56,872 bases of DNA, from positions 1 through 56,872 of the forward strand of contig NZ_QGGF01000693.1 of NCBI RefSeq assembly GCF_003857015.1, in the 5' to 3' direction. This DNA comes from Micromonospora globispora (GTDB taxonomy: Bacteria > Actinomycetota > Actinomycetes > Mycobacteriales > Micromonosporaceae). The notes under the pieces are model-generated. The model worked only from the letters and a program-made list of their open reading frames with translations. It was not told the origin of the DNA and made no database searches. Below, one piece after another: positions 42,735 through 56,589 of the stretch; the stretch's first letter is position 1; the number at the start of each line of letters is the position of its first letter. The translations under genes and the position numbers were made by a program.

Positions 42735-42889
42735 TTCGTGTTCCCCCTGGGACACGACCCATAGGCCCACGGTGCGCGCTGAGATCAGCTTCAGCGTGCA
42801 CCGTTTGCGTTTCGGCGTGGAAGGTCAGGCGCAGGCCGAGCTGGCGGTAGACCTTGGCTTTGTCGGCCGGGTCGGCGTCGCGGAGCACA
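42735..42889 (-). pseudogene. 3' fragment of a serine-recombinase-like gene, copy 1
   Basis: The minus strand reads [20 protein letters not shown], then a short strand and SAHRGPMGRVPGGT. This resembles the C-terminal tails of large actinobacterial serine recombinases. Nothing of the catalytic or zinc-ribbon domains is present. The same segment, better preserved, recurs at 45765-45986. The reading continues to 42568 without family likeness. Confidence 0.55.
42750..42889. repeat. Direct repeat, left copy (140 bp)
   Basis: This stretch matches 45794-45933 in the same orientation. The first 64 bases (42750-42813) are identical, and the rest is similar with scattered substitutions. The match stops abruptly at 42889. 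The two copies bracket a segment of about 2.9 kb with a GlxA-type regulator and a saccharopine-dehydrogenase-like gene. Confidence 0.9.
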
Positions 42890-42899
42890 CGGCAGACTC

Positions 42900-45764: not shown

Positions 45765-45986
45765 TCATGGATTTGTGGTCGACGTCGCCCCTCGGACACG
45801 ACCCATAGGCCCACGGTGCGCGCTGAGATCAGCTTCAGCGTGCACCGTTTGCGTTTCCGGGTGGTAGGTCAGCCGCAGGCCGAGTTGGCGGTAAACCTCG
45901 GCCTTGTCCGCGGGGTCGGCGTCGCGGAGCACAGTGACGATGTCCCCGAGGGTCCGGACCAGGACCGCAATCTGTGTTCGGCTCAT
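45765..45986 (-). pseudogene. 3' fragment of a serine-recombinase-like gene, copy 2
   Basis: The minus strand encodes 73 residues: [60 protein letters not shown] and GRVRGAT. It looks like the tail of a large serine recombinase, with helical then strand segments. It is cut at 45987, where a broken nhaA sequence begins. Confidence 0.58.
45794..45933. repeat. Direct repeat, right copy (140 bp)
   Basis: This is the second copy of the repeat at 42750-42889, in the same orientation and without gaps. It lies wholly inside the recombinase-like fragment. The match ends at 45933, although the fragment itself runs on to 45986, so this copy keeps more of the ancestral gene. Confidence 0.9.
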
Positions 45987-45989
45987 CCG

Positions 45990-46362
45990 GCGTGGCGCCG
46001 GAAGGTCGGCCGTGTGAAGATCGGCTCGCCGGCACCGCCCGAGTTGACCGTAAGGAACAGGGCGGCGGGTACGACCATGTCCCGGCCGCCGCGACGACGG
46101 GCATCAGGGCCGCCCGCCATTCCCGCAGATGGCCGGAGACCAGCTCGCGTTTGATCTCCAGCGACACGACGAGGAAGAACAGCGTCATCAGGGTCGTTGA
46201 CCCGGTGCCGGAGATCCATGCTGCTCAACGAGCCGAACCCGCCGACGGTGAACACGAACCGGGTGGTCCAGAACTCCTCGTACCAGTGCGCCAACGGCGT
46301 GTTCGCGGCGACCAGGGCGGCGAACGCTGCCGCGAGCATAACCGTCGCCCCCGCGCTGGCAT
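45990..46362 (-). pseudogene. nhaA: Broken nhaA (Na+/H+ antiporter) fragment
   Basis: Read on the minus strand, one frame gives LAAAFAALVAANTPLAHWYE and VNDP. The continuation [20 protein letters not shown] is in a second frame, followed by a return to [21 protein letters not shown]. These are consecutive segments of the NhaA N terminus, so there are at least two frameshifts. The gene is cut by an IS5-type fragment on one side and by the recombinase fragment on the other. It cannot encode a working transporter. Confidence 0.72.
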
Positions 46363-46599
46363 CTGGCGCATCGTCAGGTTGGTGCGCCAGTACGCGGCCA
46401 CCAGCAGTACCGGGTCGGGCAGGTCAAGGGCCCACTGCCGGCCCGGCCGGCCGTCAGCGATCGTGTCCCCGCCTCGCTCTGCGACCAGGCGGACCAGCTT
46501 GCGGAACTGAGCGGGTTGCAACCCTGTGAACGGGAAGATCCACTCGGCGCGCGCTGCGGAGATCACCTGCACCCAGGCATCCTCGATGATTGTCCTCAA
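46357..46599 (-). pseudogene. N-terminal fragment of an IS5-type transposase
   Basis: The minus strand reads FPFTGLQPAQFRKLVRLVAE, then a GRPGRQWALDLPDPVLL stretch and YWRTNLTMRQ. This is the N-terminal helix-turn-helix part of IS5-family transposases common in actinomycetes. After about 80 residues the similarity stops where nhaA sequence begins. The DDE catalytic core is absent. Confidence 0.65.
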
Positions 46600-46626
46600 C
46601 AGACAGACTTCGGGGTTACGAGACGT

Positions 46627-46647
46627 CCCTTAGCTTGATCTTTAACC
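46627..46647 (+). repeat. Left terminal inverted repeat of the insertion sequence
   Basis: CCCTTAGCTTGATCTTTAAC plus one C. It differs at two positions from the reverse complement of the right end at 48279-48299. Confidence 0.85.
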
Positions 46648-46820
46648 CCGAGGATCCTGTTGGGACCCCGACCGAGCAGTACGCCTCGAGATCCTCGTCG
46701 GGCGTCGGATGCGGGCTGCCTGCCGAACCTGCTCCCCGGCGGCCGCCCGGTCGCGGAAACAGCCCTTGGTCGATGATCTTCTTGTCTAGGGAAGAACATC
46801 AATAACCAAGGGCTGTTCTG

Positions 46821-48284
46821 GTGACCAGTGTGCATGACCGTCGTGCGGCTGATGCCGTCGGGGACCTGGACAGGTTCCGGCGAGTGTTCTACGACTGCAT
46901 GACCGCGCGGGCGGACGCGTTGTTCGACCTGACGGACGCTATGTTGTGCGCCGACGGGCCGGTGCGGTCGTTGGTGGAGTTGTCGCTGGTGGGTGAGCAC
47001 CGTCGTGGTCACGGGGCGTTGTACGACGCCCTCGCCTGCGGGCGGCTGGACATCGACCGGCTGCGTACCGCCCTCGCCGGGGTGCCGCTGCCGCGGGCGG
47101 CCGACGGGCGTCTCGTGCTGGCGGTGGACATCACCTGCTGGCTGCGGCCGGACGCGCACACCTCACCGCAGCGGATCCTGTGTCACACCTATGGGCGCGG
47201 TAAGGACCAGACGATCATGGTCCCGGGTTGGCCGTATTCGATGGTCGTGGCCCTGGAGCCGGGGCGCAGTTCATGGACCGCGCCGTTGGACGCGGTGCGG
47301 CTGGCGCCCGGTGCAGACGGCGCGACGGTCACCGCCGGACAGTTGCGGGACATCGTGCGGCGGCTGGTCACAGCCGGGCAGTGGCGGCCCGGGGACCCGG
47401 ACATCCTGGTCGTGGCCGACGCCGGCTACGACGCGCCCCGCCTGGCGTTCCTCCTGCGTGACCTGCCCGTGCAGGTGCTTGCCCGGATGCGCTCGGACCG
47501 GGTACTCCGCCGAGCCGCGCCACCTCGGCAGCCGGGAACGATCGGCCGGCCGCCCCGGCACGGCGGCGAGTTCGTCTTCGGTGATCCCGCCACCTGGGGT
47601 GAGCCGAACGCGGCCACCGTCGCCGACACCCGCCTCTACGGCACGGCGTGGGCCCGAGCCTAGGACCGGCTGCACCCCCGGCTGACCCACCGCAACGCCT
47701 GGATCGACGCGGCGAAGGCACTGCCGGTCATCGAGGGAACCGTCATCCGCCTGGAAGTCGACCACCTGCCCAGCGGCGCGACCCCGAAGCCGGTCTGGCT
47801 GTGGTGGTCCGGCGTCGACGCCACCACCGCCGACGTCGAGCGGCTCTGGCAGACCTTCCTGCGCCGCTTCGACATCGAACACGCGTTCCGCCTGTTCAAA
47901 CAGACCCTCGGCTGGACCTGCCCGAAAATCCGCTGCCCGCAGGCCGCTGACCGCTGGACCTGGCTGATCCTCGCCGCCTACACCCAGCTTCGCCTGGCCC
48001 GAACCCTGGCCACCGACCTGCGCCGCCCCTGGGAGAAACCAGCACCACCGCAGCGTCTGTCACCGGCCCGCGTCCGCAGAGGATTTCGACACCTCCGCGC
48101 GAAGGCCACCTGCCCCGCCAGCGCACCGAAACCCTCCCGGCCAGGACCTGGACCGCCACCCGGCCACCGCAACACCCAGCCCACCCCCCGTCACGACGTC
48201 CACATCACAACCACCAAGAAGACCAACAAACCGGGCACCAAAAAAACGAAGACCGCGAATCCCCGACCACGCCGAACAGGTTAA
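46821..48284 (+). pseudogene. DDE-type transposase interrupted by an in-frame TAG
   Basis: The GTG at 46821 opens a frame of 280 codons ending at TAG 47661-47663. The same frame continues without another stop to TAA at 48282-48284, giving 487 residues if read through. Catalytic features are VLAVDITCWLRPD and VVADAGYDAPRL before the stop, then RFDIEHAFRLFKQTLGW after it. The stop occupies the position of a Trp in related transposases as I recall them (WDRLHPRL), so one TGG to TAG change would explain it. The family resembles IS701-like transposases. Confidence 0.8.
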
Positions 48285-48299
48285 AGATCAAGTTAGGGG
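48279..48299 (-). repeat. Right terminal inverted repeat of the insertion sequence
   Basis: GGTTAAAGATCAAGTTAGGG plus one G, the inverted partner of 46627-46647. The transposase stop codon lies inside it. Confidence 0.85.
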
Positions 48300-48550
48300 T
48301 AGGGGACCTGATTGTGACGGTCCGTCATCCTTTCGAGTGATCGAGCAATCCTCGCTGCTGCTGCATCAGAGTCTTGGGTAGGGCGAGGTAAGTAATGGAG
48401 CCGACGGCAATCGCCGCGATGCCGGTGTGGATCCGGTGCACCAACCATCTGAGAGTGCTGGGCAGGCAAAAGCCAACGGCCCGTTCCACGACCATGCCCT
48501 CGACGCTCAAGGCGGTCGACCGCCCGGCCGGGTACGCAGGGCGGCTGCGA
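48300..48550. other. Spacer between the insertion sequence and the primase-helicase gene
   Basis: No confident gene. A 61-codon minus frame (48325-48510) contains one hydrophobic segment (IHTGIAAIAVGSITYLALP) but has no recognisable family and no clear ribosome site. It may be a fragment. Confidence 0.35.
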
Positions 48551-50926
48551 TCACCGGCCGCTGTCGGCGGCGGGCGTGAAGCCGAGTTGGATGTATGAGC
48601 GGGACCGTTTGCGCCACATGGCGGCCAACACGCCGACCTGCTCGTCGGCGTAGTCGTGGACCTCCACGCTGGTCTTGCCAGGGTGGGTGCGCAGGATCCG
48701 GCCGACGTACTGGACCATGCTGCCTTTGAATGACACGGGGTGGGCGAGGAACAGGGTGTCCAGCTTCGGGCAGTCGTAGCCTTCGCCGACGTATTTGTCG
48801 GTGGCGATGACGAGCAGCGGTGGCCCGTCGGAGGGCGGGTCGGCCAGGAAGGTGAGGACCTGCTTGAGGTCCTTGGACTTGCGGGTGGCGTAGAGCAGGT
48901 GCGGGTCGTGGCCGAGGTCGCGCAGTCGCTTCGCGAGGGCCTCGACGTGGGCGGTCTGCCGGGTCAGGACCAGGCAGTTGCGGCCCCGGTCGAGGGCGGT
49001 GTGGACGTCGTGGCAGACCTGGTCGTTGCGGGTGTCGTCGGCGACGAGACCGCCGAACACCACCGAGGTGATCGCCCCCGGCTTCGCGGTGTCGACGTTC
49101 TCAGGCAGGGCGAACGCGGTCTGGTGGACGTGCAGGCGGCGGTGCGGGGCTTCGGGGTCGGTCTTGTCGATCATCGGGATGGTGTGTCGCTTGGGTCCGC
49201 AGTGCATGAAGATGATCGGGCCGAGACCGTCGCGGCGGTAGGCGGTGGCGGTGAGGCCGATCCAGCGGCGGGCCGGGATGCGCCGCAGCGCCTTCTCCAC
49301 CGTCGGGGCGCCGGCGTGGTGGGCCTCGTCGACGATCACGAGGCCGTACCCGGACAGCCGTTCGGCGGCGTCGTCCATGCGGGCGACCGTCTGCATCATG
49401 GCCAGGTCGATTACCCCGGTCGGTTTGGTCTTTCCGCCGCCGATCTGCCCGACCCGTGCGGGGTCCATGTCGAGCACGGTGGTGAGGCGTTCGCGCCACT
49501 GGTCCATCAGCGGTGCCCGGTCAACCAGTACCAGGGTGGGTGTGCGGTGGTGGGCGATCAGGGCGCAGCCCATGACGGTCTTGCCGGATCCGGGCGGTGC
49601 CTCCAGCACGCCGTGGTCGTAGCGGGTGAGGTCGGCGACGGCGTCGGGTTGCCGGTCGCGCAGCGCCGCGGTGAACGCCACGTCGATGCGTGGCGGGTCG
49701 GCGCGCCGGTCGTCGATCTCCAGCCGGCTGCCCGCCTGTGCCACCAGCTCCGCGGCCTTGTCGGCCATGGCCCGTGGCAGGTACAGGAATTCCAGGTCCT
49801 CTGTGTAGCAGCGGATGTACCGGGGCGTGTTCCAGTTCGACAGGCGCAGGTTCTCGTTCTTGTAGAACTCCGGGTTGGCCAGCGACGCGGCGTGTTTGAG
49901 GGAGGCCAGCAGCGACGGCGGCAGACCGGCCCGGCGTACCGCGAGCATTCCCGCCCACTCGGCGCGCACCACGGCCGGTGGCGCCGCGTCGGGCCGCAGC
50001 GCCGAGCGGAACAGCGACGCCTCGGGGCCGACCGCGACCGGTCGGAGATCGGCGACCAACCGCTGCACCTCGGCCAGTGCCAGCTTGGCGACACCGGCCA
50101 GGGAAGCCCACTGGTCCGGGTACGGCGTGAACGTGCCCGGGTCGACGAAGACGGTGGTGCCGGCGTCGCGGCACTGCTTCTGCAGCGGCAGCGCGATCAG
50201 GTTGCCCAGCCCCTCACCCTTGGCAGGAAGGTGGTCCTGGGAGGGGAAGAACCGGTCATAGCTGTCCAGCCCAAGCTCACCGCGGACCGTCATCGCCTCG
50301 CGCAGCAGCCCGAACCCCAACGCTCGCGCCTCCACCGCCGGCACTGGCTCGCCGAAGAAGGTCCAGACGTGGGCGCCCTGACCGGAGCGGGAGATCTCCA
50401 CCGCCGTCGGCACCCCGACCGCCTCAGCTGCCTGGACGTACGCCTGGGCGTCGAGTTGCCACTGCGCGCCGTCGAAGTCGCAGGCCAGCAGTCGGCAGGT
50501 GTCGTCGGCCAGCATCGGATACAACCCGGCGCTGATCTTCCCGGCCAGGTGGTCGTGGAGCACCGCGTCGGTCAGCGGTCGGTACCGGCGGGCCTCCTTG
50601 GCTTCCTGCCACGTCTGGCCCGGGAGTCGTTCCAGTTGCGGGTACCAGCCCTTGCGGCCGTCCTTCTCCCACCGCTGGGCGTACACGTCGTCGCGACCCA
50701 TGAACAACGACCGGAACAACGCCACCCGCTCGGCCGCGATCCGCTCCCGCGCGCCAACGGATGCGGCCTGCAACGGTCGCTCCCGCGCCGGCGCCGCACG
50801 GGAACCCGGGGCCAGCCGCGCCACCTCGGCTCGCAGGGCCGCCACTTCCGCTCGGATCAACGCCAACTCGTCAGCGCAACCGCACGGGCAACAGGCGGTC
50901 GCTTGACCGGTCGATGTCGCCGTCAC
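48551..50926 (-). CDS. AEP primase-superfamily II helicase fusion (TOTE conflict-system type)
   Basis: The protein has about 791 residues from the GTG at 50926. A Cys cluster (CCPCGC, about 12-17) precedes a coiled coil (ADELALIRAEVAALRAEVAR). The archaeo-eukaryotic primase domain follows, with catalytic LLACDFDGAQW (DxD at 150-152), EISRSGQGAHVW (about 178-189) and FFPSQ...GNLIALPLQK (about 226-250). The C-terminal helicase has PPGSGKT (444-450), VDEAHH (533-538), LTAT (558-561) and a final GRILRTHPG. Such AEP-helicase fusions are known from TOTE-type conflict systems thought to act on invading nucleic acid. The start is uncertain, with no strong ribosome site. The nucleotidyltransferase gene lies just upstream on the same strand. 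Confidence 0.83.
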   Translation of the reverse strand: MTATSTGQATACCPCGCADELALIRAEVAALRAEVARLAPGSRAAPARERPLQAASVGARERIAAERVALFRSLFMGRDDVYAQRWEKDGRKGWYPQLERLPGQTWQEAKEARRYRPLTDAVLHDHLAGKISAGLYPMLADDTCRLLACDFDGAQWQLDAQAYVQAAEAVGVPTAVEISRSGQGAHVWTFFGEPVPAVEARALGFGLLREAMTVRGELGLDSYDRFFPSQDHLPAKGEGLGNLIALPLQKQCRDAGTTVFVDPGTFTPYPDQWASLAGVAKLALAEVQRLVADLRPVAVGPEASLFRSALRPDAAPPAVVRAEWAGMLAVRRAGLPPSLLASLKHAASLANPEFYKNENLRLSNWNTPRYIRCYTEDLEFLYLPRAMADKAAELVAQAGSRLEIDDRRADPPRIDVAFTAALRDRQPDAVADLTRYDHGVLEAPPGSGKTVMGCALIAHHRTPTLVLVDRAPLMDQWRERLTTVLDMDPARVGQIGGGKTKPTGVIDLAMMQTVARMDDAAERLSGYGLVIVDEAHHAGAPTVEKALRRIPARRWIGLTATAYRRDGLGPIIFMHCGPKRHTIPMIDKTDPEAPHRRLHVHQTAFALPENVDTAKPGAITSVVFGGLVADDTRNDQVCHDVHTALDRGRNCLVLTRQTAHVEALAKRLRDLGHDPHLLYATRKSKDLKQVLTFLADPPSDGPPLLVIATDKYVGEGYDCPKLDTLFLAHPVSFKGSMVQYVGRILRTHPGKTSVEVHDYADEQVGVLAAMWRKRSRSYIQLGFTPAADSGR

Positions 50927-50987
50927 GCATCCATTGATACAGGGCCGCGGTGGCCGTACCGCCACCAGGGCACGCGCGTCGCACCCT

Positions 50988-51650
50988 TCAAACAACGCTA
51001 GAACAGGTTGGCGGTGAGTTCCTCGCGCCACTGCGCGAAGCGTTTGACATCTCGCTGATGTGGGCGGGGTCAGCACCGTAGGCGGCGAAACGGCGGTCCG
51101 GGTAGCGCTCCAGCATGCCGAACAGGTCCGCCAGGATGCGCCGGTCGAACCCCGCGTCCGATTGTTCGGCCAGCTCGCACAACCGCGCCCGGGTGTAGCG
51201 ACCGCTCATGAGCGCCGCGTCGATGTCCAGAAAGTCTCGGGGCTCGGCGCGCGTGTAGAGGGCGGACATCTTGCCCGCGACGACGTCGTCGGCATGCAGG
51301 ACTGGCCCGACGTCCATCATCACCGGCGGCAACGCGCGCCAGTTGGCCGCCAGCTCGACCTTGTACGGGTGCTCGGGCCGAGCGGGATCGGCGACCGCGA
51401 GCCGGGCGAAGGTGTCGAACTGCTGCGTGATCTTGACTGAATACCCGGCGGCGCGGTAGCCGTCGACCACGGCGTCCACTGCTGCGGCGAACTCCCCACG
51501 TCGCTCCCACGCCGTGAACAGGTCGACGTCCTCGCTCGGACGGTCGAGGATGCCGTGGGCCTGCACGGCGTAGCCGCCGGCCAAGGCGAACCCGTAGCGG
51601 GCAGCGACCCGCAGTCCGATCTCTGCCAGGCGGAGGTGAACCTGATCCAC
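50988..51650 (-). CDS. AbiEii/AbiGii-type nucleotidyltransferase (toxin-like)
   Basis: The 220-residue protein has the nucleotidyltransferase core FALAGGYAVQAHGILDRPSE and DVDLF (about 19-43): the GG loop followed by the D-x-D pair. Later segments YKVELAANWRALPP and KMSALYTRAEPRDFLDIDAA are typical of AbiEii relatives, which transfer nucleotides to tRNA or other targets. The GTG at 51650 starts two bases after the stop of a 117-residue partner, so the two are coupled. In AbiE modules the toxin follows an antitoxin; the partner here has no visible DNA-binding motif. Confidence 0.82.
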   Translation of the reverse strand: MDQVHLRLAEIGLRVAARYGFALAGGYAVQAHGILDRPSEDVDLFTAWERRGEFAAAVDAVVDGYRAAGYSVKITQQFDTFARLAVADPARPEHPYKVELAANWRALPPVMMDVGPVLHADDVVAGKMSALYTRAEPRDFLDIDAALMSGRYTRARLCELAEQSDAGFDRRILADLFGMLERYPDRRFAAYGADPAHISEMSNASRSGARNSPPTCSSVV

Positions 51651-51652
51651 TC

Positions 51653-52006
51653 TTACCCGGCCAGCGTCTGCGGCGGCGTGGTCAGCTCGGGAAAGCGTGC
51701 CTGCCACAACGCCCGCAGCCGGGCCGGGAGCCACAAGCTGGGCCACAGGCGGCGCAGCGTCGGGCCGTGCAACCACCGACGCAAGTCGTCGACCGAATTG
51801 GCCTGGTTCAGCACCGTCTGGTACATCAGCTGCAGATCGCCGGCGTCGTGCAGGTCGTAGGTGCTGTCGCCGGACCAGTCCAGCCACCGATCGAGTGTCA
51901 CCACGCCGCGAACCGGTCCGCGTAGGTCGGACAGGGTGGCGGCGACCACGAAGTGCCGCTGGTCCACGTACCGTGACCCAGGCGGTGCGCCGTTGCCGCT
52001 AGCCAT
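51653..52006 (-). CDS. Small conserved partner of the AbiEii-like nucleotidyltransferase
   Basis: The 117-residue protein has a near-ideal ribosome site (AGGAGGTAGAGAC) before the ATG at 52006. It includes YVDQRHFVVAATLSDLRGPV, TLDRWLDWSGDSTYDLHDAG and LRRWLHGPTLRRLWPSLWLP. I do not recognise a named domain. The tight linkage to the nucleotidyltransferase (two bases between genes) suggests an antitoxin or accessory subunit, although it lacks the helix-turn-helix of AbiEi. Confidence 0.7.
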   Translation of the reverse strand: MASGNGAPPGSRYVDQRHFVVAATLSDLRGPVRGVVTLDRWLDWSGDSTYDLHDAGDLQLMYQTVLNQANSVDDLRRWLHGPTLRRLWPSLWLPARLRALWQARFPELTTPPQTLAG

Positions 52007-52352
52007 GTCTCTACCTCCTGACCCAGATCGTACGTCTGAGTGGCGCCGCCGGCTGGCACGACATCGACCTGCCGGCCATCTGACCTCCCGGGCTCGGCCC
52101 GCGGCCTGATGGTCAACGCTGGAAGGACGAACACCCGCGTGCCGATCCCGCACTACAGGCGGGGACAGGGTGCCGCCGCCCGCTGGTTCGAAGTTCTCGC
52201 GCCGGACGTCGGCAGCCTTCGGCCGACCATCCCGGGCCGCGGTCCGCTAGTGCTCGAGTCGACGGGGCGGACGGACTGGTGGGGCTGGGCATTGCCCACC
52301 TTGCGGAAGGATACGCTCGCGGCTGCCCGGGCCAGATGTCGTGGAGGTGACC
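52007..52352. promoter_or_regulatory. Divergent intergenic region between the toxin-like pair and the SNF2 helicase
   Basis: No gene is supported in these 346 bases. CAGA (52024-52027), CGTACG (52029-52034) and TCTG (52035-52038) make a near-palindrome 18 to 32 bases before the 117-residue gene, in a position suited to an autoregulatory operator. A plus-strand open frame crosses the region into the helicase gene but has no family features. Confidence 0.4.
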
Positions 52353-55646
<3,294 letters not shown>

Positions 55647-55781
55647 CGCACCTCGCCGCAGCCCTCACGCCGGTCGCGGCGGCCGATCGGGGATGAGGGC
55701 CGCAGCGAGCAGCGATGATGACCACCCGTCAGCGGCTGCTTCTCCACAGTGCCCGCTGACTGCTATAGGATTACTGCATGA

Positions 55782-55804
55782 GCACCCATGCTGAGCATGG
55801 GTGC
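55782..55804. repeat. Perfect palindrome GCACCCATGCT-g-AGCATGGGTGC
   Basis: Eleven-base arms (55782-55792 and 55794-55804) flank one base. The left arm recurs exactly at 55898-55908. This looks like a protein-binding site or recombination site rather than a terminator, because the loop is too short and an extra half-site exists. Confidence 0.85.
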
Positions 55805-55833
55805 CGCGAATTTGGGTACGATCCCCCCTCGGA

Positions 55834-55857
55834 CACCAGTTCTGGTGGAGTTCCACC
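55834..55857. repeat. Two overlapping inverted repeats
   Basis: CACCAG-TT-CTGGTG (55834-55847) and GGTGGA-GT-TCCACC (55844-55857) are both perfect and share bases 55844-55847. An RNA from here could form either hairpin but not both. Confidence 0.7.
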
Positions 55858-55897
55858 GAGTATGAGTCGGGCTCGGTTCCGCGGTGGTGCGCACACG

Positions 55898-55908
55898 GCA
55901 CCCATGCT
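55898..55908. repeat. Third copy of GCACCCATGCT
   Basis: Identical to the left arm of the palindrome at 55782, 105 bases downstream. Confidence 0.8.
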
Positions 55909-56076
55909 GTAACAAGTGATCCTGGGCGCTGGCGAGCCGTACGTCGCTGCCGGCGCGTAGCGGCGTGTTCGCAGTTGGACCGGCCATGACACCACCTCGC
56001 CGCCGCGATCGTGAGCAGCTCATCGGCGTGCTCGTCCCGGCCCCGCTTCCCGACCGACCGCGGCCCCGCCAGGTCC

Positions 56077-56589
56077 CTATGCCGGCGCTACCCGCACCAC
56101 GTCCGCCTGCAATCGCCTCGCCCAAGGTGGGCTGTATCGGCCCACGTAGTCGCGAGCGCGGGGGAGCGGGTCATGCCAGTACTGGTCCGGCATGCGGTGG
56201 TGGTGCGTCTCGCAGAACTCGGCGAGGCTGTGTATGATCTTGACGCGCTGCAGCGGTTGGCCTTCGAAGTCTGTGTTGATCGCCAGCAATTCCGGCTCGG
56301 GATTCCAACCCGAGTGGTCGAACGCCCAGCCATCCCAGACCGTGTAGGCGTGGAAGACCTGCCGCTCGCCCGCGAGTCGCACCGCCGCTATCTCGATTGG
56401 CCGGTCTGGGTAGGAATCTCGGCAAACCCAGGCGAGGATGTGACACGCTCCGGCAGCGAAGAAGGCCTGGTCCGTCCGTTCCCATGCGACGCGTTGGTCT
56501 GATCGCTCGATCGCCGTCCGACGAAACGCTCCTGCTGCTGTGGCTGCCACAGGCCGGACGTTAGTGGATGGCCCGACGTATCTGCTCAT
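56077..56589 (-). CDS. Protein of unknown function with GACH and FDHSGWN motifs
   Basis: The frame encodes 170 residues from the ATG at 56589; the first 40 look poorly conserved, and no clear ribosome site is present, so the true start may be internal. The core FFAAGACHILAWVC (about 43-56), HAYTVWDGWAFDHSGWNPEP (about 79-98) and FCETHHHRMPDQYWHDPLPR looks like a folded domain with conserved Cys, His and Trp. A cysteine-dependent hydrolase is conceivable but not shown. It stands alone between the palindromic region and an IS110-type element. Confidence 0.5.
   Translation of the reverse strand: MSRYVGPSTNVRPVAATAAGAFRRTAIERSDQRVAWERTDQAFFAAGACHILAWVCRDSYPDRPIEIAAVRLAGERQVFHAYTVWDGWAFDHSGWNPEPELLAINTDFEGQPLQRVKIIHSLAEFCETHHHRMPDQYWHDPLPRARDYVGRYSPPWARRLQADVVRVAPA

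Follow-up and report, generated by a model that had tools for sequence, protein, structure and literature searches.

The perfect 23-bp palindrome near the right end of the contig analyzed here almost certainly sits in an attachment (att) site. The contig is a complete one (C444) of Micromonospora globispora, 56,872 nucleotides long and hereafter called the window, and comparison with related genomes shows that the palindrome belongs to the right end of an integrative element in a tandem array at the 3′ end of tRNA-Leu(GAG). The best reading of a third copy of the repeated sequence, beyond the att core, is that it belongs to the left end of the element that follows. For the function of the repeat, we favor, as the most likely reading and with moderate confidence, a double role as an arm-type site and an operator.

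The palindrome GCACCCATGCTGAGCATGGGTGC, named IR1, spans positions 55782-55804 and contains the decamers GCACCCATGC (55782-55791) and GCATGGGTGC (55795-55804). A third exact copy of its 11-mer lies at 55898-55908, at offset +61 past the core, so both the 23-base palindrome and the extra half-site of the original prediction were located. The two mutually exclusive small hairpins predicted with them are also present, as CACCAG-TT-CTGGTG at 55834-55847 and GGTGGA-GT-TCCACC at 55844-55857. The dyads of the window are centered at 55799.5, 55850.5, and 55902.5, in steps of 51 and 52 bp, or about five helical turns. The features of this region are as follows.

55743-55771, + strand: promoter-like hexamers, with a weak -35 TCCACA (55743-55748, 4/6), 17 nt, and a -10 TAGGAT (55766-55771)
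55778-55780, + strand: conserved ATG, putative +1 of a leaderless-type promoter
55822-55838, + strand: attachment core TCCCCCCTCGGACACCA, a copy of the tRNA-Leu(GAG) 3′ end
55844-55857, no strand assigned: dyad GGTGGA-GT-TCCACC (IR2) in the left end of the following element, its center ~14 nt past the core
55986-56093, + strand: relic of ORF1, the gene of a predicted MraZ-fold protein, of the next element (80.6% identity, 36 residues)

The region had been described as gene-free, which holds apart from the last of these features, a gene-start relic.

IR1 is the sole perfect inverted repeat of the window with arms of 11 and a loop of at most 3, and such palindromes numbered 4 in total over 30 dinucleotide shuffles (~0.13 expected per window). 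The 11-mer found three times within 130 nt was a single case in the window and was also seen in three of eight shuffles, making the triple repeat by itself weak evidence. Taken alone, the palindrome and the triple repeat are suggestive, short of decisive, and their significance depends on the homologues. An inverted and repeated sequence of this kind, with triple 11-mers arising in shuffles, could be a transcription terminator, an iteron-like replication repeat, or a product of chance. We judge these readings very improbable, as no terminator-like site (a stem-loop followed by a T-run) was found at 55600-56100, Rfam gave no match up to E 1 across 55500-56200, and the module described below is conserved at element ends. 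The iteron-like role that had been proposed found no support, the copies being dyads at fixed distances from the att core and none of nine Pfam-scanned proteins (seven of them from the window) being a replication initiator. Plasmid and phage records contained no match to 55600-56100 (blastn, E 1e-5).

To place the repeat in its genomic context, a 251-base query was compared with 160 genomes of the genus, 36 of which it matched at E 0.001. Many of these matches consisted of its left part, ending at ~55836-55840, or of its right part, starting from ~55822-55827, and some covered both together; the overlap of the two parts, TCCCCCCTCGGACACCA, is the 3′ end of tRNA-Leu(GAG). Several relatives carry an intact tRNA-Leu(GAG) (identified with ARAGORN) with the right-hand part directly after it. 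By its arrangement, the pattern is that of elements integrated in tandem at the tRNA 3′ end, in the order tRNA-core-left end...right end-core, and the repetition of the tRNA 3′ end at the element ends is that of tRNA-targeting integrative elements. At the core of 55822-55838, the right end of one element lies to the left and the left end of the next to the right, and the suggestion of a recombination or attachment site was supported, since copies of the repeat lie on either side of a tRNA-derived att core where two integrated elements meet.

Cores were found in the window at 42744, 45788, and 55825, and the remaining features of the array and its cargo are listed here.

42736-42897, - strand: serine recombinase relic beside the oldest core (54 aligned residues, 72%)
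42744-42755, + strand: oldest, degenerate att core
45786-46025, - strand: remnant of the C-terminus of a large serine recombinase, next to the older core (80 aligned residues, 76%)
45788-45799, + strand: older att core, start of the element ending at the palindrome
48551-51076, - strand: AEP-TOTE primase-helicase, cargo (Pfam PF22548, E 1e-76; PADLOC PrimPol, 2e-82)
50988-51887, - strand: AbiEii-like nucleotidyltransferase, cargo (Pfam PF08843, E 1.5e-14)
52341-55646, + strand: SNF2 helicase, cargo, the last gene ahead of the palindrome (Pfam PF00176, E 7.5e-62)

The serine recombinase relics were found by tblastn with 20 profile-found seeds, 11 earlier seeds having given no match. With these C-terminal relics beside the first two cores, the palindrome closes an element of about 45796-55827, and the contig as a whole carries the remnants of integrative elements arrayed in tandem. 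A recombinase beside the element end was found in relatives, the window having relics only. The search for a tyrosine integrase in the window gave only an 18-residue stretch of the ORF1 relic; one integrase of this kind is encoded elsewhere in the genome (C55:35455-36474). The cargo of the element includes defense-type genes (48551-51887 and 52341-55646), and the top PADLOC model for the SNF2 helicase was DpdE (1.3e-214), with ZorD models matching too. Two further features, at 45835-46188 and 46821-47663, are a fragment of a Na+/H+ antiporter adjoining the serine recombinase relic and, within the element, a DDE_5 insertion sequence.

We then built a sequence-only model from 23 right ends and searched it through the genus and the family. 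The right ends share a module, TANNNT-N6/7-ATG-inverted repeat-core, that recurs at element ends. All 160 genomes of the genus matched the model at E 0.01, in many cases merely through the tRNA end itself, and 60 of the 160 matched at E 1e-5 or better (hand count); the threshold of E 1e-5 was passed in the family by 82 of 300 genomes, among them 37 from the genus of the window, and by 17 of 44 genera. Lack of conservation of the repeat in homologous loci had been named as the observation that would count against the original prediction; the repeat proved to be conserved in both genus and family genomes. The 98 hits fell in 81 loci, and the 77 with a recognizable ATG were used (49 distinct, one place, L005/L045, being counted twice). 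Those set aside were three modules that lack the ATG pattern, two hits on the reverse strand, 11 tRNA ends, and five other cores. The right-end figures lean in favor of the model, since modules of this kind made up its training set.

The inverted repeat after the ATG scored 6.8, compared with 3.5 in shuffled sequences, and the flanking 28 nt scored 3.6 before it and 4.2 after it. In the 23-row alignment, 84.5% of the cells pair, and 12 cells were changed on both sides compared with 3.7 in shuffles, a number that none of the 500 shuffles reached. Three of five covariation measures beat all 500 shuffles, the other two being reached by 31 and 83 of them. As read from this alignment, the dyad persists while its letters change. 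The letters vary widely by group (ACACCTG-7-CAGGTGT, GCATACCTG-7-CAGGTATGC, TGCGCACT-3-AGTGCGCA, and TGTGCACC-6-GGTGCACA), and the spacing is not the same between groups, which counts against our best explanation. The decamer pattern of the palindrome, GCA-N4-TGC, occurs at ATG+17 in 22 of the 49 distinct modules and at +4 in eight. An identical palindrome also lies beside another core, GGGTTCGAATCCTCCCACGGAG, perhaps that of another tRNA target (L053 1514-1579, G124).

Next, the sequence ahead of the repeat was analyzed in 47 divergent upstream regions, among which a near twin (L039_18246) stands for that of the window. TANNNT precedes the ATG in 41 of them, by 6 nt (34 regions) or 7 nt (7 regions), and was found at most three times at any other of the 36 printed distances. 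A fair -35 accompanies 14 of the 47 modules, 33 being without one, and an E. coli-type scan found no promoter in the window. We infer from this arrangement that the palindrome overlaps the start of an outward leaderless-type promoter. The operator role of the original prediction would apply to the element's own outward promoter and not to the flanking genes. At the joined ends of tyrosine elements, the promoter-like site of the module faces ORF1 and int; at seven loci, the tyrosine integrase lies instead 0.2-1.1 kb upstream of the module.

The position of the dyad, which starts right at the putative +1, would also suit an RNA hairpin at the 5′ end of a leaderless transcript, stabilizing it or blocking its translation. 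The stem and loop lengths differ between groups, as they do in RNA hairpins, and the + strand folds more stably than shuffles (mean z -3.2). However, the - strand folds equally well (mean z -3.5), and among the non-Watson-Crick pairs of the + strand A-C (9) outnumber G-T (4), so there is no wobble preference, and selection at the RNA level was rejected on this basis. Related decamers at fixed places past the core also speak against this reading, which we hold to be unlikely. The retention of the ATG in nearly all modules could instead reflect coding, with a small leaderless protein, or an extended form of ORF1, beginning at the ATG and continuing through the repeat; in one G063 element (the second, stitched from L147-L149), the joined ends would fuse in frame with ORF1 to give 217 aa. 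The distance from the ATG to the core end is, however, 59, 60, 61, and 62 in three, eight, four, and one of 16 elements, and the joined frames range from 21 to 217 aa. With no single frame retained, coding across the core was rejected, and we give this reading very little credence.

Then we turned to the left ends, 91 of which were distinct after clustering of 132, and looked for recombinases in the 2.6 kb past the core, with examples checked by Pfam. A tyrosine recombinase reading off from the core was found at 24 left ends, a large serine recombinase reading towards the core at 17, and neither at 50. Relatives with the tyrosine kind carry int immediately inside the tRNA-side end and oriented like the tRNA; the serine kind does not share this layout, its gene running toward the core. 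In two loci (L123 3000-4600 and L124 9500-10400), the serine recombinase frame crosses the att core into tRNA-Leu antisense (tail CPRGDLNPHALYGH), and its C-terminus would alter upon integration. A terminator-like hairpin lies within 100 nt of the core at 10 of the 17 serine, three of the 24 tyrosine, and 15 of the 50 unassigned left ends (serine versus tyrosine, p 0.003). A strong hairpin, GTGGTCAAGC..GCTTGACCAC, recurs between the core and ORF1, ~30-60 nt past the core (in left ends such as L038, L013, and L097), and is possibly an attenuator.

A dyad centered between nucleotides 14 and 15 past the core, the place of IR2 in the window, was found at 19 of the 24 distinct tyrosine left ends and at none of the 17 serine ones. 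The mean score of this left-end dyad was 4.96 for the tyrosine kind (3.42 shuffled) and 3.35 for the serine kind (3.30 shuffled), and the next 28 nt of the tyrosine left ends scored higher still (5.83), owing to a second hairpin. The motif GCA-N4-TGC, whose background is 0.00036 per position, stands at +9 in six and at +61 to +64 in four of the 24 tyrosine left ends and in none of the 17 serine ones (p 0.002; the two places were picked after inspection, the left ends themselves not being chosen by the motif), and 14 of the 24 lack it at both places. The 50 of 91 left ends without a recombinase in range were excluded from this comparison; 13 of them carry the motif at +8, +9, or +58 to +64 (by hits, nine at +8 or +9 and five at +58 to +64, as one end could hold two). 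A stricter motif, GCAYNCRTGC, was found in 5 of 24 tyrosine, 1 of 17 serine, and 8 of 50 unassigned left ends. Since the motif stands at fixed places in 10 of 24 tyrosine left ends versus 0 of 17 serine ones, the third copy in the window is probably not accidental.

The two ends of a given tyrosine element also resemble each other, the right and left sites scoring 7.22 with their own partners versus 6.08 when mismatched (p 0.032, n = 9), the best cases coming from G137 (a 13-mer) and G063 (an 11-mer). No such left-right word match was found in serine elements (5.89 versus 5.92, p 0.605, n = 9). This test is small, missed boundaries could blur its outcome, and one of the 21 listed pairs (G130) was lost because no module was recognized. 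Related repeats flanking the core, as in attP arms of the AICE type, were found in part of the elements. In another reading, IR1 would act on the outward promoter solely as an operator for some unrelated regulator and would play no role in recombination, IR2 and the +62 site being separate. Such an operator would explain why IR1 lies over the putative start, and very different letters by group are what different repressors would produce; it is at odds with the identical decamer at fixed distances across the core and with the resemblance of right and left sites in tyrosine elements, and we regard it as improbable. The serine-recombinase elements carry right-end modules as in the tyrosine ones, without the left-end sites, which is unexpected for a site serving a tyrosine integrase alone. 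A scheme with one module type per recombinase kind was rejected, as type a closes both serine elements (G123, G031) and tyrosine elements (G111, G068).

The module is also found on the tRNA side, pointing into the tRNA, at nine loci of the genus and at five loci of another genus (g29). A tyrosine recombinase frame lies near the tRNA-pointing module in three of these five (L233-L235) and ~3 kb away in L231, and none was found in L232. In all of these loci (L105, L107-L114, and L231-L235), the tRNA-proximal module reads into tRNA-Leu antisense.

A search of the tyrosine left ends for ORF1 gave 23 frames, 22 of them plausible and one spurious. For the ORF1 example tested, neither Pfam nor NCBIfam gave a family at E 0.05, and ORF1 matches a PHROG family of unknown function; by sequence, only weak matches were found in the PDB, the best being 2glw_A (profile, E 0.0055). 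The predicted model (mean pLDDT 82, ~96 over residues 71-160) resembles MraZ, with a Foldseek E of 1.3e-4 and a Z of 12.1 (rmsd 4.0 over 109 residues, 9-14% identity). ORF1 is thus predicted to share the fold of MraZ, a double swapped-hairpin transcription factor, and from the likeness of the model a DNA-binding role is likely. Unlike that of MraZ, its gene precedes an integrase and its sequence matches no family model.

Given the place and conservation of the repeat, we infer binding and transcription as follows. In our preferred reading, the double role, IR1, IR2, and the site near +62 would serve a recombination complex as arm-type sites, to which either the tyrosine integrase or the MraZ-fold ORF1 encoded just ahead of it would bind; spaced by about five turns, the dyads would all face the same side of the helix. 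From the right end, the TANNNT-ATG promoter would read across the core. ORF1 and int would be transcribed from the tRNA promoter when the element lies beside the tRNA, and from the right-end promoter when it is excised and circular or in tandem. IR1 extends over about +1 to +27, and a protein seated there would repress the right-end promoter, so that assembly of the complex would also silence its own genes.

More tentatively, and with considerable doubt, an exchangeable att-end module common to tyrosine and large serine elements might couple a promoter with recombination, a MraZ-fold protein on the dyads, themselves about five turns apart, building the complex across the tRNA core while repressing its own gene and int, with the elements of an array restraining each other's excision. 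The module and core mark element ends across the family and so delimit cargo such as the primase-helicase, the AbiEii-like protein, and the SNF2 helicase. Should the promoter prove real, a switch that depends on the state of the element, as described for proteobacterial integrative and conjugative elements (ICEs), would reach actinobacteria, and a MraZ-fold protein would act outside the cell-division operon. In the literature within our reach, screened mostly by title and abstract, we found no account of these arrays, of a single end module common to the tyrosine and the serine elements at tRNA-Leu(GAG), or of a MraZ-like or MraZ-fold gene before an integrase.

Known systems share parts of this organization. 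In ICEKp1, ICEclc, and ICEEc1, as described in the accessible part of one report, int is transcribed from the tRNA promoter when the element is integrated and from a 3′-end promoter when it is excised, and stem-loops lie ahead of int (PMC13023037). The elements described here resemble them, as far as that part goes, in the site at a tRNA 3′ end, the recombinase gene just inside the tRNA-side end in tRNA orientation, the putative promoter at the far end, directed across the att site, and the hairpins before int. They differ in belonging to Actinobacteria, in the dyad on the putative start, in the MraZ-fold gene before int, and in an end module that closes serine-recombinase elements too, the switch being deduced here from sequence.

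Among actinobacterial elements, the att identity segment of pACPL from Actinoplanes lies, according to the portion of the report available, between 21-nt repeats that resemble the integrase-bound arm-type sites of pSAM2 (PMC3364876). The present elements likewise have repeats on either side of a tRNA-derived identity segment, but as dyads of other sequence at ~52-bp steps rather than 21-nt repeats, these dyads being candidate integrase sites. pSAM2 and pACPL are AICEs with rep and tra genes, and the likeness concerns the att sites alone. Finally, AICEs arrayed in tandem at a single tRNA gene are recorded in Frankia and Streptomyces avermitilis in the accessible part of a further report, and their integrases come from different subfamilies (PMC3218068). 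The arrays described here share with them the succession of several elements at a single tRNA gene and the variety of integrase subfamilies and differ from them, so far as that part extends, in using tRNA-Leu(GAG) and in mixing elements with tyrosine and serine recombinases.
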